Shown here piece after piece: positions 2 through 7,918 of a stretch of 7,918 bases of DNA (its first letter is position 1; each line of letters starts with the position of its first letter). The notes beneath the pieces were generated by a model. It saw only the letters and a list, made by a program, of their open reading frames with translations, was not told the origin of the DNA and did not search any database. The stretch spans positions 1 to 7,918 of the forward strand of contig JAUXDE010000084.1 in NCBI GenBank assembly GCA_030618495.1. Reading direction: 5' to 3'. The position numbers and the translations under genes are program-made. The stretch comes from Clostridia bacterium. GTDB taxonomy: Bacteria > UBA6262 > WVXT01 > JAUXBS01.

Positions 2-1150
2 GTTGACGTTACAGAGTTAAGACTTAACCATGCGGTACATGCTTCTGATATTGAAAGAGAAAATATTAGGATAATATCGCCTGATAGCCAAGTATTATGT
101 AGTTGCTCAATTACTAGAGCAGCAGTAGCAGCCGGAGAGGATGAAGAAGGCGAAGAGGGTGAAGAGGGTGAAGAAGGAGTTGAAGGCGAAGAAGGAGTTG
201 AAGGCGCAGAGAGCAGAGCAGGGCAGGAAAAGTCGCAGTTTTTTGGTTTTATTGATGATAGTAATGCAAGGCAGCTTTCCTATCTAATACAGTCGGATTC
301 CCTTGAAAACATTACCGCGGTGCTTTCCTATTTAACTCCGAGTCTTGCCAACAGGGTGATGTATTATTTCTCTCATGACTTGAAGGTTGAGGCAGCAAAA
401 AGTCTCATTACCCCGAGGCCGGTAATGCCTGCAGTGGCAAGAAAACTGGAAGAGGATATCAAGGAAAAAATTGATTTTGTGATCGGCGGCATTGAACATC
501 TTGTGGAAATACTTGATGAGGCTGACAATAGCACGAAAGAGGAGATACTGGGTTTTCTTCATGAAAAGGATCCGGAACTTGCCGTGAAGATGAGAAAGTC
601 CCTTGTCGGTTTTGAAAACATTTCACTGGTTGATGATAGTTCCCTGCGTATGCTCATGAGGAAAGTTCCCCTGCCAACGATGGCTGTTGCTCTTAAGGGC
701 GCGAATAATGAAACAACCAAGAGGATTGTTGACAGGTTGCCTGAAGGGACAGCGGCGATGATAAGGCAGGAACTGGATTTAGGCAAGCCGGTAAAACAAA
801 ATGTAATAGATGAAGCGCAGCGTAAAATCATAAAGATTGCGCGTGAACTGGAAAAAAATGGGAAAATCACGATAAAAAGGGAAGTGGAATTCAAAATAGA
901 GGAACAAGAGGAAGAAAAGAAAAGACAAGAAGAAAAAATAAGTAAAGTTGCGGGTATGGTCGATGATGAAGTACCGGAATCAGAAAAGGCAAAAGGGAAT
1001 TATTTAAAATGGCTGATAATCGCCGGTGTCATGGGGGTGGTTATCGCAGGTTGGCTGATTTTAAGGCAACCGGAGGTGAGGAGCAGGATGAGGAGTATTA
1101 TGGGAAACGCCTCCAAAGAACAGAAGGAAATGTTCATTCCGGAGGAATAA
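2..1150 (+). CDS. FliG-like protein with acidic repeat and C-terminal membrane anchor (5'-partial)
   Basis: The frame is open from base 2 to the TAA at 1148-1150, giving 382 residues, so the start lies upstream; the GTG at 320 is internal. Residues 80-290 resemble FliG middle and C-terminal domains: an F-x-F-I-D-D opening, the GG turn near 163, a DPELA segment, FENISLVDD, ALKGA at 230-234, a GKPV turn and an EAQRKIIKIARELE helix. In flagella FliG forms the rotor ring and switch. Here EHPQ is absent, and of the E. coli torque residues only the Lys of ALKGA is kept exactly; by eye R281 is Gly, D288 is Gln, D289 is Glu and R297 is Lys. A Glu/Lys-rich helix (about 296-312) and one membrane segment (about 334-355) follow, then an Arg-rich tail. 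Residues 1-35 vaguely resemble the end of a FliF/YscJ ring-building domain. FliG homology is fairly sure; a motor role is doubtful. Confidence 0.8.
   Translation, partial: VDVTELRLNHAVHASDIERENIRIISPDSQVLCSCSITRAAVAAGEDEEGEEGEEGEEGVEGEEGVEGAESRAGQEKSQFFGFIDDSNARQLSYLIQSDSLENITAVLSYLTPSLANRVMYYFSHDLKVEAAKSLITPRPVMPAVARKLEEDIKEKIDFVIGGIEHLVEILDEADNSTKEEILGFLHEKDPELAVKMRKSLVGFENISLVDDSSLRMLMRKVPLPTMAVALKGANNETTKRIVDRLPEGTAAMIRQELDLGKPVKQNVIDEAQRKIIKIARELEKNGKITIKREVEFKIEEQEEEKKRQEEKISKVAGMVDDEVPESEKAKGNYLKWLIIAGVMGVVIAGWLILRQPEVRSRMRSIMGNASKEQKEMFIPEE
143..205 (+). repeat. In-frame tandem repeat encoding an acidic Glu/Glu/Gly linker
   Basis: Nine-base units encoding Glu-Glu-Gly or Gly-Glu-Glu run from 143 to about 178. 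They merge into two exact 18-base units (170-187 and 188-205), each encoding EEGVEG. The repeat corresponds to residues 48-68 of the FliG-like fragment and separates its N-terminal segment from the FliG domains. It is probably a flexible, strongly acidic linker, and its DNA repetition makes copy-number change by slippage likely. Confidence 0.85.
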
Positions 1151-2011: not shown

Positions 2012-2545
2012 ATGAAGGGTATTATTTATATTGATATAGAAAAGTGTCTTGGTTGTAAATCATGTGAGTTGGAATGCGCTGTTGAGCATTCTAATTTCAA
2101 GGATTTGCTTAAAACAATAAAAGAGACGCCACTGCCTCAATCCAGGGTTAGCGTTGAAGCTTTAGGTGACATATCAATGCCAATGCAATGCAGGCATTGC
2201 GAAGATGCTCCGTGCGTGGCAGTGTGTCCGACAAAAGCTATGAAAAAAATGGGTGTTGAAGAACCTGTGTTGGTGGAAGATAAGTTATGTATCGGATGCA
2301 AGCTGTGTGTCCTGGTTTGTCCCTTCGGGGTTCTTAAAATGAACAAAGAAGGAAAGGTCGCGATAAAATGCGACCTGTGTATAGAAAGAACTAAAAAAGG
2401 CGAAGAGCCTGCCTGCGTTAATGCCTGCCCGACACACGCAATTCAGTACAAATCCATTGATGAAATTGTGGATGAAAAGAGGGGGAAAGCTGCTACTGAC
2501 TACCTGGTCGTCCTTGAAGAGAAGAAAAAGAAGGCCGGTAAATGA
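2012..2545 (+). CDS. CooF/HycB-like ferredoxin with four [4Fe-4S] clusters
   Basis: This 177-residue protein starts at the ATG at 2012 behind a GGAGG site; the open frame runs further upstream only through the tRNA genes, so longer starts are wrong. Sixteen cysteines form four cluster motifs: C12/15/18/22, C60/63/68/72, C93/96/99/103 and C120/123/135/139. This is the electron-transfer subunit pattern of the DmsB/HycB/CooF family. The first motif (CLGCKSCELECAVEHS) and the QCRHCEDAPC segment most recall CooF, which carries electrons from CO dehydrogenase to a hydrogenase or another acceptor. There is no signal peptide or membrane segment, so it should be a cytoplasmic electron wire. It is the first gene of the operon and overlaps the next by 4 bases (ATGA), suggesting coupled translation. 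Its catalytic partner is not in the window; HycB-type formate dehydrogenase or hydrogenase partners are equally possible. Confidence 0.88.
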   Translation: MKGIIYIDIEKCLGCKSCELECAVEHSNFKDLLKTIKETPLPQSRVSVEALGDISMPMQCRHCEDAPCVAVCPTKAMKKMGVEEPVLVEDKLCIGCKLCVLVCPFGVLKMNKEGKVAIKCDLCIERTKKGEEPACVNACPTHAIQYKSIDEIVDEKRGKAATDYLVVLEEKKKKAGK

Positions 2546-2994
2546 ATACTGATAAAGTTGATGGAATAATAAAAAAATACGGAAAAGAACAGTCTGCAAT
2601 AATGTCAATTCTGCAGGACATCCAGTCGGAATACAATTACTTGCCGCGTGAAGCTTTGGAGCAGGTGTCCAAAAAGATGAGTATCCCCTTGAGTAAAATA
2701 TACGGTATAGCGACATTTTACAAGGTGTTCAGCCTGACTCCGCGGGGCCGGCACCTGATTAAGGTATGTCTCGGAACCGCCTGTCACGTGCGCGGGGCTC
2801 CGCAGATACTTGAAGAAATTGAAAGGAAAATAGGGATACGCGCCGGTGAGACGACCGGCGACCTTAAGTTTACTTTGGAGAGGGTGAATTGTCTCGGCGC
2901 TTGCGCCCTGGGGCCGTTGGTAATGATTAACAATGATTACTATGGCCAAATGACTTCAGCCAAGGTTGACAAAATCCTTAAAGCTTATGATTAA
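2542..2994 (+). CDS. nuoE: NuoE/HydC-type [2Fe-2S] thioredoxin-like subunit
   Basis: This 150-residue protein has the normal length for the NuoE, HndA, HoxE and HydC family. An N-terminal helical region (about 1-60, with IQSEYNYLP and IYGIATFY) is followed by a thioredoxin-like domain. Its [2Fe-2S] ligands are C76 and C81 (CLGTAC) and C117 and C121 (CLGAC). In complex I and NAD-linked hydrogenases this subunit sits beside the FMN site of the NuoF partner and tunes or relays electrons. The start codon overlaps the stop of the CooF-like gene (ATGA), and its 3' end overlaps the NuoF start by 8 bases, so the three proteins are probably made together in fixed ratio. The family call is firm; which enzyme it serves is not settled by the sequence. 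Confidence 0.93.
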   Translation: MNTDKVDGIIKKYGKEQSAIMSILQDIQSEYNYLPREALEQVSKKMSIPLSKIYGIATFYKVFSLTPRGRHLIKVCLGTACHVRGAPQILEEIERKIGIRAGETTGDLKFTLERVNCLGACALGPLVMINNDYYGQMTSAKVDKILKAYD

Positions 2995-4843
2995 GAAATT
3001 AAAAAACAGGACTGATTTAGAAAATCTAAAAGAATCAATATTGAAAAAAAAAGATAAAAAGAAACATTGCATAATAGTTTCTTCGGGAACATGCGGTCAA
3101 ACAAGCGGTTCAGAAAAAGTTATTGAAAAGTTCAAAGATGAAATAAAAAAACAAGACATGGGGAAGCAGGTGGAACTTAAAGTTACCGGTTGTCATGGGT
3201 TTTGTGAGGTCGAGCCCGTTGCCCTCATTCAACCTGAGGGAATATTTTATCAAAAATTAAAAGCTGAAGATGTGCCGGAAATCATCTCGGAGACGATTGT
3301 TAAAGGCAAGGTTATAGAGAAACTGCTTTACTCTGACACTGAAACAGGAAAGAAGATTCCTTACGAGAAGGACATACCGTTTTATAAAAAACAAAGCCGC
3401 ATTATTTTTGGAAATAACGTATTAATTGACCCGACAAGTATTGATGATTATATTGGAATCGGCGGGTACGAGGCTTTGGGTAAAGTGCTGTTTAAAATGA
3501 AACCCGAAGAGGTGATTGAAGAAGTAAAAAAATCGGGACTGAGGGGCAGGGGAGGCGGAGGTTTCCCTACCGGGAAGAAGTGGGGATTTTGCCGCCAGGC
3601 GGAGGGGGACGTGAGATATGTCATCTGTAACGCTGACGAAGGCGACCCGGGCGCGTATATGGACAGGAGTTTGCTTGAGGGGAATCCTCACAGCGTGCTG
3701 GAAGGAATGATTATCGGAGCGTATGCCATAGGTTCTTCCGAGGGGTATGTTTATATTCGCGCGGAGTACCCTTTAGCGTTAAAAAACCTTGAGAAAGCTA
3801 TTAGCCAGGCTGAGGGTTACGGCCTGCTTGGCAAAAACATACTGGGTTCGGATTTCAATTTCAGGGTAAAAATAACCCGTGGAGGCGGCGCTTTTGTCTG
3901 CGGTGAATCTACGGCTTTGATGGCGTCCATTGAGGGGCGCGTCGGTGAGCCGAGGGCGAAGTACGTTCATACCATAGAAAGCGGTCTGCGGGACAAGCCG
4001 ACAAACCTGAACAATGTTGAAACATGGGCTAATGTTCCCATGATTATCAGCAGGGGCGCTGGCTGGTACGCAAAGATAGGCACCCAAAAGAGCAAGGGGA
4101 CAAAGATATTTTCTTTAGTAGGGAAAATAAAGAATACCGGGCTGGTAGAGGTGCCGATGGGGATGACCTTAAGAGAGATTATCTATGATATAGGCGGCGG
4201 TATTCCGGGGGGTAAGAAATTCAAAGCGGTCCAGACAGGAGGGCCGTCGGGGGGGTGTATTCCCGAGGAGTTAATTGATTTGCCTGTGGATTTCGAACGC
4301 CTGGCCGAAGCGGGGTCAATGATGGGGTCCGGCGGGATGATTATTATGGATGAAGATAACTGCATGGTTGACGTGGCTAAGTATTTTGTTGATTTTTTAA
4401 GGGAAGAGTCCTGCGGCAAGTGCGTCCCCTGCCGGGAAGGACTGGAAAACATGTACAATATATTGGCCGGTATCACGGAAGGCAGGGGAAAGGAAGAAGA
4501 CATTGGTTTGCTTAAAGAACTGTCCGAGGTGCTTTCCGAAGGGGCTTTATGCGCGCTTGGGACTACGGCTGCCAACCCGGTCATGAGCACTTTGCGCTAC
4601 TTTCCGGAGGAATATGAAAGTCATATCCGGGACAAAAAGTGCCCCGCGGGTGTCTGCAAGGAACTGGTACTGTACAGCATAATCGAAGAAAAATGTAACG
4701 GCTGCGGGTTATGCCGAAAAAAATGCCCGGCAAAGGCAATTAGCGGCGAACCCAAGAAAGTCCATGTTATCAATCAGGCTGAATGCATAAAATGCAGGCA
4801 GTGTTTCGAGGTTTGTAGATTTGGAGCGGTAAAAATAGAATAA
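2987..4843 (+). CDS. nuoF: NuoF/HydB-type NADH- and FMN-binding subunit with C-terminal 2[4Fe-4S] ferredoxin
   Basis: I chose the ATG at 2987 (618 residues), which overlaps the NuoE-type gene by 8 bases; a TTG at 2966 would add seven residues. Domains in order: a thioredoxin-like domain (about 20-110; GTCG with C36, and GCHGFC with C69 and C73); the FMN and NADH domain (about 150-330) with GLRGRGGGGFPTGKKW at 184-199 and NADEGDPGAYMDRS; an SLBB segment; the N3-type [4Fe-4S] domain with C476, C479, C482 and C522; and a ferredoxin domain with C570/573/576/580 and C600/603/606/610. This is the layout of HydB and HndC, not of the shorter complex I NuoF. It should oxidise NADH or reduce NAD+ in the cytoplasm. 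In bifurcating hydrogenases this subunit is the proposed bifurcation site, but that role cannot be read from sequence here. Confidence 0.94.
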   Translation: MIKKLKNRTDLENLKESILKKKDKKKHCIIVSSGTCGQTSGSEKVIEKFKDEIKKQDMGKQVELKVTGCHGFCEVEPVALIQPEGIFYQKLKAEDVPEIISETIVKGKVIEKLLYSDTETGKKIPYEKDIPFYKKQSRIIFGNNVLIDPTSIDDYIGIGGYEALGKVLFKMKPEEVIEEVKKSGLRGRGGGGFPTGKKWGFCRQAEGDVRYVICNADEGDPGAYMDRSLLEGNPHSVLEGMIIGAYAIGSSEGYVYIRAEYPLALKNLEKAISQAEGYGLLGKNILGSDFNFRVKITRGGGAFVCGESTALMASIEGRVGEPRAKYVHTIESGLRDKPTNLNNVETWANVPMIISRGAGWYAKIGTQKSKGTKIFSLVGKIKNTGLVEVPMGMTLREIIYDIGGGIPGGKKFKAVQTGGPSGGCIPEELIDLPVDFERLAEAGSMMGSGGMIIMDEDNCMVDVAKYFVDFLREESCGKCVPCREGLENMYNILAGITEGRGKEEDIGLLKELSEVLSEGALCALGTTAANPVMSTLRYFPEEYESHIRDKKCPAGVCKELVLYSIIEEKCNGCGLCRKKCPAKAISGEPKKVHVINQAECIKCRQCFEVCRFGAVKIE

Positions 4844-4846
4844 GAA

Positions 4847-5605
4847 ATGATTAATCTAACTATTAACGGCAAAAAAGTCAGCGTAGAAGAGGGGTTAACC
4901 ATACTCCAGGCAGCAGAACAAATGGGTATCCGGATACCCACTCTTTGCTATCATGAAGCAGTGGTTGCTTACGGCGCCTGCAGGGTATGCCTGGTAGAGG
5001 TTGTAAGAAAGGGCTGGCCGAAGATGGTTACCGCCTGCAATTATCCCGTCCAGGAGAATATCGAAGTTAATACCAATAATGAGAAGGTGATAAAGATTCG
5101 AAAGTTAGTTGTAGAACTGCTTTTAGCGCGCTGCCCGGAAGTAAAGGAAATAAAGGATTTGGCAGAAGAGCTGGGTATTAAGGAAATAAGGTTTAAGAAG
5201 AAAAACGATAAATGCATACTTTGCGGTTTGTGTGTCCGCGTCTGTGAAGAAAAGATGGGAATAACCGCCATAGGTTCAATAAACCGGGGGACGATAAGGG
5301 ATGTGGCAACTCCTTATAATGATAATTCTGATGTCTGTATCGGCTGCGGGGCATGCGCTTCTATTTGTCCTACCGGAGCGATTAAAATTGAGGATGTTGG
5401 CGACATCAGAACGATTGACAAGTGGAATACAAAGGTTAAATTAAGGAAATGTGAGACATGCGGTAAGTATTATGCGCCTGTGCCGCAGCTAGATTCCTTG
5501 AAGGGAAAGACATCTGTGACGGAAGAATCATTTAAGATGTGCATGGATTGCAGGAGAAAAAAACTAGAAAATACTATGATAAACGCCAAAAAATCGAAGT
5601 ATTGA
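4847..5605 (+). CDS. HoxU/NuoG N-terminal-type iron-sulfur subunit with extra Cys4 tail
   Basis: This 252-residue protein follows NuoF after 3 bases, and its ribosome site is weak, so coupling is likely. An N-terminal plant-type [2Fe-2S] domain has C34, C45, C48 and C64. The next region normally holds the His-Cys3 cluster of NuoG, HoxU and [FeFe] hydrogenase HydA, but here it reads LLLARCPEVKEI, with one Cys (C96) and no His ligand, so that cluster is probably absent. Two [4Fe-4S] motifs follow, C123/126/129/133 and C164/167/170/174. The tail adds CETC (202/205) and CMDC (232/235), a likely zinc ribbon or extra metal site. There is no H-cluster domain, so this is not a hydrogenase. It should collect electrons from NuoF and hand them to a partner not seen here. 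It is the last intact gene of the operon. Confidence 0.88.
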   Translation: MINLTINGKKVSVEEGLTILQAAEQMGIRIPTLCYHEAVVAYGACRVCLVEVVRKGWPKMVTACNYPVQENIEVNTNNEKVIKIRKLVVELLLARCPEVKEIKDLAEELGIKEIRFKKKNDKCILCGLCVRVCEEKMGITAIGSINRGTIRDVATPYNDNSDVCIGCGACASICPTGAIKIEDVGDIRTIDKWNTKVKLRKCETCGKYYAPVPQLDSLKGKTSVTEESFKMCMDCRRKKLENTMINAKKSKY

Positions 5606-6655: not shown

Positions 6656-7909
6656 TCATGCCACTTCCTGCTTCCCCAACCTCTGGTTAACCAGATTTTT
6701 TAGCGCTTCCCGCAATAGCGGTAGATGCCGGTGTCCCTGTATTATTCTTAGCCTTGATTCTATCTCAAGCAAGGAAGTGCCGACCCACCGCATTTTTTGG
6801 TTGCTGTTTTTCCAGTGACTTACCCTAACGGTTTTACGTTCAACCTGGCTCATAACTGATTCTATACAGTTCGTGGTTTTAAGGCTGATACCCAGCTTGG
6901 TAAACAGGCCCAGCCGATGAAGGGTAAGAGTATCCTCAAATCCTTCGTCGATACTCCTTACGGCCGATTCATTTATGGGCTTTAGGTCCGACCGTATTAC
7001 TTTAAATTCTTTCTTCGCTTCTTCGTATGTCGGTTGCTCGTATGCTTTTTGCATCCTCTTCCGGTATTCCCCTTGCTTTCCCTTGGGCAGATAGCTTACC
7101 ACGTTTTCCCGCTTATGCCACTGACATCGGTGTATTTCAGCATGCGCCCCGAAGCTCTTGCGGATTGCCGCTGTCAATCCTTTGGCTCCGTCGATTATAA
7201 ACAGTATTCCGTTACTGTAATCCAATCCTCGGTCTTTTATGCCGTCAAAGAACTGGTTTATTACCCGTTCGTTTTCCGTACCCGTCTGTACCATACCGAG
7301 AAATACTTTTTTTCCTTCCATGGTTACACCGAGGGCTATTACTATTTCGTCATCAGCAAACGTCTTGCCGTCCACAAACATCGCTACTATATCATGTCCC
7401 TCAAGCCGCCGTTCCATAAGTTCACGCAGTTTTTTAGAGCTCGCTCTCTTAAGACGTTTTGATACGGTAGATGGCCGTAATCCAAATGCCCCTGGTACTG
7501 TGTCCGCGCATTCCTCGTAATTCCTGCACGATAAACCACTGAGGAGCCTTTTCATTAGTTTCTCATCGCCCATGTTGCGGTCCTGCAGGCTCTTATAGGT
7601 ATCAAGAGATATTTCCTTGTCGGAGACGGTATCCCGAACCCTCGGCACCGTCAACGGTATTCTCTTTCCCTGCAGGCATATTGAACCTTGTTGCTTGCCC
7701 CATCTCGATACCCCGTCCAGTCCTTCTCCACGGCTATATCTTCTGCCGGCAAGACGATTGACATCGTCTATTAACAACTCTTTCACATACTCCAATACCA
7801 CTGGCACCATTTCCTGAATCATTGTTACTCTCGTTTCAAATCCCTCTGTTCCTGCAGTTTCCCTGATTTTTTCCTTTACTTCCCGGCTCCTTTTTTCTAC
7901 AATCTTCAT
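6656..7909 (-). CDS. IS256-family (mutator-type) transposase
   Basis: This 417-residue protein is full length for the IS256 family. The catalytic DDE triad is visible as D180 (MFVDGKTF), D240 (FIIDGAKG) and E350 (TTNCIESVMSQVE). The family C-x2-H motif is at C262 and H265 (RCQWHKREN), in the insertion between the second Asp and the Glu. N-terminal residues about 20-130 form the DNA-binding helices and a VPRVRD strand. There is no frameshift or internal stop, so the enzyme looks intact. The ATG at 7909 is only 9 bases from the window edge and shows no clear ribosome site, so a start further upstream is possible. It acts by copy-and-paste transposition through a circular intermediate, as known for the family. 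Confidence 0.95.
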   Translation of the reverse strand: MKIVEKRSREVKEKIRETAGTEGFETRVTMIQEMVPVVLEYVKELLIDDVNRLAGRRYSRGEGLDGVSRWGKQQGSICLQGKRIPLTVPRVRDTVSDKEISLDTYKSLQDRNMGDEKLMKRLLSGLSCRNYEECADTVPGAFGLRPSTVSKRLKRASSKKLRELMERRLEGHDIVAMFVDGKTFADDEIVIALGVTMEGKKVFLGMVQTGTENERVINQFFDGIKDRGLDYSNGILFIIDGAKGLTAAIRKSFGAHAEIHRCQWHKRENVVSYLPKGKQGEYRKRMQKAYEQPTYEEAKKEFKVIRSDLKPINESAVRSIDEGFEDTLTLHRLGLFTKLGISLKTTNCIESVMSQVERKTVRVSHWKNSNQKMRWVGTSLLEIESRLRIIQGHRHLPLLREALKNLVNQRLGKQEVA

Positions 7910-7918
7910 GAAGGCGGT
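6656..7918 (-). mobile_element. IS256-family insertion sequence (cut by window edge; inner end not placed)
   Basis: The element covers at least the transposase gene and the last bases of the window. Its inner end should lie in roughly 6580-6655, since elements of this family carry only a short tail after the transposase. The terminal inverted repeat cannot be confirmed because the other end is outside the window. Confidence 0.75.

Follow-up and report, generated by a model that had tools for sequence, protein, structure and literature searches.

A putative natural FliF-FliG fusion protein in a bacterium with no detectable flagellum, and a possible rotary motor for something other than swimming

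The gene at the 5' end of the stretch of DNA analysed here (the window, 7918 bp, which is the whole of contig C31) is predicted to be, in its true form, a naturally occurring FliF-FliG fusion. FliF would be represented by its C-terminal part only, with a signal peptide, an RBM3/collar-like periplasmic domain and a membrane helix, and FliG would contribute its middle and C-terminal domains (FliG_M and FliG_C). The source bacterium has no detectable flagellum, as judged on FlhA and FliM/FliN. Because relatives of this gene are located beside motor genes and genes for the secretion of surface proteins, the fusion may be part of a rotary motor for something other than swimming. No description of the fusion family, or of a system of this kind, was found in the literature that was searched.

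The source genome (G000) has 1.69 Mb in 179 contigs, with an estimated completeness of 98% and an estimated contamination of 0.4%. The frame of the ORF under consideration (2..1150, plus strand) is already open at the contig edge, beyond which it continues, and since the window spans all of C31, this contig offers no sequence from further upstream. The features of this ORF are listed in Table 1.

Table 1. Features of the ORF at the 5' end of the window, with positions counted from the first letter of the window
Feature	Position	Strand	Evidence and remarks
Probably foreign 5' end: C-terminal domain of ribosomal protein bL25, residues 1-49	2..150	+	NF004132, Ribosomal_TL5_C
Acidic Glu/Gly repeat, probable chimera junction	151..235	+	Exact junction not placeable; the true gene also has an acidic linker here
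Predicted FliF_C-FliG fusion gene, 3' part: FliG_M, FliG_C, charged helix, C-terminal membrane helix, Arg-rich tail	236..1150	+	Pfam, PDB, AlphaFold/Foldseek
FliG_M	269..475	+	PF14841, residues 90-158; alignment
FliG_C with torque helix	557..874	+	PF01706; alignment; fold match
C-terminal hydrophobic helix, residues 332-357, then Arg-rich tail	995..1072	+	Hydropathy 2.14; helix 249-276 of model

Both FliG domains of the window score well above their Pfam cut-offs (FliG_M, E 6.6e-10, 39.5 bits versus 25; FliG_C, residues 186-291, E 2e-26, 92.8 bits versus 23.3), and the best solved relative in a PDB sequence match is the structure of the middle and C-terminal parts of FliG, 1lkv (E 4.9e-33). 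The sequence-only reading of this DNA had described these two domains together with one C-terminal membrane segment at about residues 334-355, and this description is confirmed by Pfam, by 1lkv and by the hydropathy of the helix. An AlphaFold model of the FliG part (mean pLDDT 78.1) gave Foldseek matches to FliG, including a TM score of 0.88 to the FliG bound to MotAB in 8ucs_H. A search of viral structures gave no match below E 0.04. With the FliG equivalog model TIGR00207, the window protein scores 114.4 bits and the related protein encoded on contig C88 of the same genome 127.8 bits, both below the cut-off of 226.7. FliG_N, the part of FliG that normally holds FliF, has no Pfam match in the window, and in the C88 protein only a weak one (E 0.058) that overlaps the middle domain. 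Further, the EHPQ motif, which is the part of FliG that normally holds FliM, is absent from the FliG_M of the window, where the alignment has SDSLENI in place of the GEHPQTI of the canonical row. The loss of these two holders of FliF and FliM fits genomes with no detectable flagellum. In the torque helix (E. coli numbering, assigned by eye), charge is kept at K264, at D289 (replaced by E) and at R297 (replaced by K), but R281 is changed to G and D288 to Q; R281 is lost in every fusion that was aligned.

The sequence-only reading had also taken residues 20-32 as the end of a FliF/YscJ ring-building domain. However, these residues are a part of bL25, and the model YscJ_FliF_C has no match anywhere in the window. 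Residues 1-49 match the bL25/Ctc model NF004132 of NCBIfam (E 5.8e-7, model positions 143-191 of 193), with a score that falls under the full-length cut-off because the bL25 piece is only a fragment, and residues 1-38 match Ribosomal_TL5_C (E 6e-4, model positions 45-83 of 84). A weak PDB match to the bL25 structures 7jil and 9i5t was also seen. The fragment appears Bacteroidota-like, with which the weak 7jil match is consistent, although it is no proof. The G+C content is 0.36 over nucleotides 1-120 versus 0.43 across the window. A complete bL25 of different sequence is encoded on contig C129 of the same genome, and due to this the 5' end of the window is most likely an assembly chimera, in which the bL25 piece would have been joined by misassembly within the Glu/Gly repeat. 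That the protein is genuine as read, one gene encoding a bL25-type domain, an acidic linker, the FliG domains and a membrane helix, would agree with a frame that runs uninterrupted from the contig edge across FliG; however, this frame begins exactly at the contig edge and inside bL25, the join falls in a low-complexity repeat, and a true fusion of bL25 with FliG was rejected as highly improbable in view of the intact bL25 on C129 and of the intact relatives, which carry FliF_C and a transmembrane (TM) helix at this place.

The missing 5' half of the gene can be sought elsewhere in the source genome, which has exactly two FliG_C matches (C88 and the window) and two FliF_C matches (C88 and C51). 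On C88, FliF_C (PF08345, 29.7 bits, cut-off 23.8) and FliG_C are present in one protein of 553 residues. The FliF_C match on C51 (E 4.7e-7, 30.8 bits, same cut-off) lies in an ORF which encodes a signal peptide, the FliF C-terminal domain and a membrane helix, and which runs off the contig end in an acidic repeat (...KEGEEGEEGEEGEEKEGEEGAGD). The C51 half and the window half are each cut off at a contig edge, in acidic repeats of the same kind, the longest exact word common to the end of C51 and the repeat of the window being 16 bases. As one FliF_C/FliG_C pair is fused on C88 and the other two matches are found in halves at contig edges, C51 and the window are most simply interpreted as the 5' and 3' halves of one gene, split by an assembly break. 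In another genome of the same genus (G001), the orthologue of the C51 half likewise stops at a contig edge. The model for full-length FliF (TIGR00206, an equivalog) scores 27.2 bits on C51, below its cut-off of 129.75, and the fusion proteins go from the signal peptide straight into FliF_C, with none of the N-terminal ring-building domains of full-length FliF. Thus, the earlier idea of a FliF-like frame carrying FliG holds for the real gene, on the evidence of FliF_C on C51 and of the intact orthologues, but not for the bL25 residues that were cited for it. The order departs a little from the proposed one of FliF part, acidic linker, FliG domains and C-terminal helix, in that a signal peptide precedes FliF_C and a membrane helix stands between FliF_C and the linker. 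FliG follows the last helix of FliF instead of preceding it, and the C-terminal helix is an additional one, seen in this subtype only.

In intact relatives, a single frame encodes a signal peptide, FliF_C, a TM helix, a linker, FliG_M and FliG_C, followed by either a TM helix or TPRs. In three genomes of the same order (G002, G003 and G004), such frames are 581-586 residues long and encode, like the window, a hydrophobic helix at the C-terminus; a second type, about 645 residues long and with TPRs in place of this helix, is also present in G003 and G004. Intact fusions are also present at loci L050-L062, acidic linkers in the intact relatives L054, L058 and L060-L062, and an aligned C-terminal hydrophobic helix in L041, L044 and L045. 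A scan of genome contigs gave 16 fusion loci (some of them on the same contigs as in G003 and G004), from MAGs whose records are labelled Elusimicrobia, Endomicrobiales, Clostridia, 'bacterium' and Sumerlaeota, these labels being the records' own and possibly wrong. The family is found in the order of the source bacterium, among Elusimicrobiota MAGs and in a single MAG labelled Sumerlaeota; with a model made from the FliF_C-like part, each of the 6 genomes of the order gave a match, as did 13 of the 16 genomes from the phylum of G076, to which MAGs labelled Elusimicrobia belong. All named carriers that were found are MAGs, and we know of no carrier that is a cultured strain. The AlphaFold model of an intact relative of 585 residues is of moderate quality (mean pLDDT 63, 70-90 in the structured parts), and in its one chain both FliG (1lkv, E 8e-13) and the FliF S-ring/RBM3 (8z5v, E 8e-7) are matched. 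A more distant FliF_C-FliG protein of similar order is present in a genome of another phylum (G048, L046:9823-11778, part of the frame masked); its locus has no PorV or Mot neighbours, and it is a related case to be regarded as a remote lead.

The gene clusters in which the fusions are found are of two types. In type A, the fusion, in some cases preceded by a PorV-like gene, is followed by MotA, MotB and a second MotB, after which there is often a histidine kinase with response regulators, or else a TPR protein. In type B, the order is a giant surface protein, a PorV-like protein with TPRs, the fusion, a coiled-coil protein (~800-1600 residues), MotA and MotB. In a tree, the fusion FliGs group together (support 89/88) and the FliG of the window lies among the type-A rows (94/99), the finer placing being unsure due to long end branches. 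A PorV-family gene is located directly upstream of the fusion in 15 of the 19 loci with room for it; 12 of these were found by a motif script, which missed the PorV genes of L004 (C88) and L038 (C51), identified by NCBIfam, and of L057, identified by reading the upstream ORF. Three type-A Elusimicrobiota loci have no PorV gene upstream. Matches of a FliG model with TPR tails to PorV-TPR proteins were false and were left out. MotA is found downstream and on the same strand in 12 of the 14 loci with enough sequence. The Asp of the motif YxDxxT carries the proton in MotB; it is kept in the first MotB of the type-A pairs (L004:10578-12023, L041, L045, L052, L053 and L055), and the second MotB has Asn there in all 6 of these distinct loci. 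As Asn replaces the proton-carrying residue, the second MotB is probably unable to conduct by itself, which points to a MotB pair of mixed type, one partner being non-conducting. In L056, one member of the MotB pair has Gly at this position.

Several further observations concern these neighbourhoods. The long coiled-coil protein, which has a Pro-rich N-terminus and belongs to no clear family, is present between the fusion and motA in those type-B clusters whose sequence extends to this point (e.g., L042:11042-14407, L120:2712-6626 and L060:12000-15902). On C88 (L004:7040-10564), the MotB genes are followed by those for a histidine kinase, response regulators and a PilZ protein, which hints at control of the motor by c-di-GMP or by a two-component system. 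The copy in the window has no motA or motB downstream; the next ORF, on the minus strand (1134-1583, 149 residues), shares 17 bases with the FliG gene at the 3' end of the latter and has no Pfam or NCBIfam match. It is followed by a hydrogenase-type cluster (2542-5605) with a NuoE-like protein, a NuoF-like protein with extra ferredoxin domains and a 252-residue protein resembling the N-terminus of [FeFe] hydrogenase group A6/HoxU, without the catalytic domain. Judged by these similarities, the cluster is the predicted diaphorase module of a hydrogenase or a similar enzyme. An IS256-family transposase gene (6656-7918), the start codon of which is 9 bases from the edge, is present at the contig end.

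In the complete protein, the second, FliF-type helix has basic residues on the side of FliG (RISRQRE in C51 and RFFTRGLARVL in C88), and as FliG follows this helix, it should be cytoplasmic. The sequence-only reading had placed the FliG domains outside the cytoplasm and the tail inside, for which the Arg-rich character of the tail speaks by the positive-inside rule; however, this topology, which requires the upstream helix to be absent, is not supported and is very doubtful, as the complete protein has a signal peptide and the FliF-type helix, the C88 and type-B proteins share the same domain order but have no C-terminal helix, and MotA, whose gene along with motB is linked to the family, is expected to meet FliG in the cytoplasm. 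With cytoplasmic FliG and a C-terminal helix, the Arg-rich tail would be placed in the periplasm, which is unusual and conflicts with the positive-inside rule. The C-terminal helix may be a re-entrant or a surface helix.

With regard to the flagellum, no FlhA match was found in G000-G005, in G048 or in 13 further carriers, and the same search does detect FlhA in controls as well as in two genomes of the sample that are flagellated; similarly, no FliM/FliN match was found in G000-G005. The source genome does contain components of the T9SS type: a probable SprA homologue (TIGR04189, E 7.8e-51, 172.6 bits, slightly below the equivalog cut-off of 200), the gene for which lies outside the fusion cluster, SprA_N (28.5 bits, cut-off 27), PorV_fam (109.1 bits, cut-off 90) and the T9SS sorting domain Por_Secre_tail (29.9 bits, cut-off 23). 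GldL and GldM gave no match in this genome with models that can miss remote homologues, and weak sub-threshold matches in several relatives. GldLM powers T9SS and gliding in Flavobacterium (PMC8986121), FliG and MotAB are the torque-making pair of the flagellum (PMC9389320), and engineered FliF-FliG fusions assemble and rotate (PMC10128058). In view of the presence of a SprA relative, PorV and sorting domains without detectable GldLM, the role of GldLM elsewhere and the rotation of the engineered fusions, a flagellum-free, MotAB-driven FliF-FliG rotor is the most likely interpretation, which we favour with moderate confidence, and its coupling to T9SS or gliding is plausible. We infer that the fusion protein would form a ring in the inner membrane with FliG on the cytoplasmic side, and that MotAB units would push FliG_C and in this way turn the ring. 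FliG_N and the FliM-binding motif would be dispensable, because FliF is covalently attached and FliM is absent. More speculatively, the periplasmic part of the rotor would pass motion or force to an outer-membrane system of the PorV/SprA type, which would export or move giant T9SS-sorted surface proteins, the motor standing in for GldLM. We put forward only tentatively that type-IX-like secretion or gliding is driven by a rotor of this kind in place of GldLM, and that the rotor is conserved across several deep lineages of bacteria.

The same MotAB-FliG machine could also have another load, such as an envelope-spanning structure, periplasmic or cytoskeletal coiled-coil filaments, or load sensing. 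The long coiled-coil proteins of the type-B clusters and the PilZ and two-component genes of C88 would be in accordance with this. However, PorV-family genes are directly upstream at most loci, and a SprA relative and T9SS-type sorting domains are present, so that a load of another kind appears rather unlikely. Less probable still is a decayed flagellum, in which the FliF, FliG and Mot genes survive as remnants that now either do nothing or serve in regulation. In favour of decay are the lack of FlhA and FliM/FliN and the loss of some torque residues, but the frames are open, two paralogues are present in several genomes, the order of the cluster is conserved, the family is found in all 6 genomes of the order and in 13 of the 16 from the phylum of G076, and one member of each MotB pair retains its Asp. 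If the preferred interpretation, a MotAB-driven FliF-FliG rotor, is true, then this rotor-stator pair is a module that functions, and may have evolved, independently of export, switching and filament; further, the family would make it possible to test directly what powers outer-membrane secretion or gliding in lineages with SprA and PorV relatives but without detectable GldLM.

Among known systems, the flagellar rotor (FliF/FliG with FliM/FliN) and its MotAB stator have the domains and folds of FliF_C, FliG_M, FliG_C, MotA and MotB in common with the family described here. However, this family is without FliM/FliN, FlhA and EHPQ and has PorV-type neighbours, and in comparison to the flagellar stator its type-A clusters add a second MotB, with Asn replacing the proton-carrying Asp. 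The FliF/FliG rotor domains that are a feature of the fusion family are, to our knowledge, not known from the Agl-Glt system of Myxococcus. This system (for AglRQS, see PMC9389320 and PMC8986121) is similar in having a MotAB-type motor without a flagellum and two MotB-like partners. In the engineered FliF-FliG fusions (PMC10128058; construct of PDB 8z4d/8z4g), FliF is likewise in frame with FliG, and FliG comes after the last helix of FliF; in contrast, the fusion described here is a natural one, with only the C-terminal part of FliF, without FliG_N and in the absence of a flagellum. Lastly, as in T9SS/gliding with GldLM, PMF-type motor genes are present here in a genome that also encodes a SprA relative, PorV-family proteins and T9SS-type sorting domains; however, GldL and GldM are not detected in the source genome, and their role would be taken by the FliF-FliG fusion together with MotAB.
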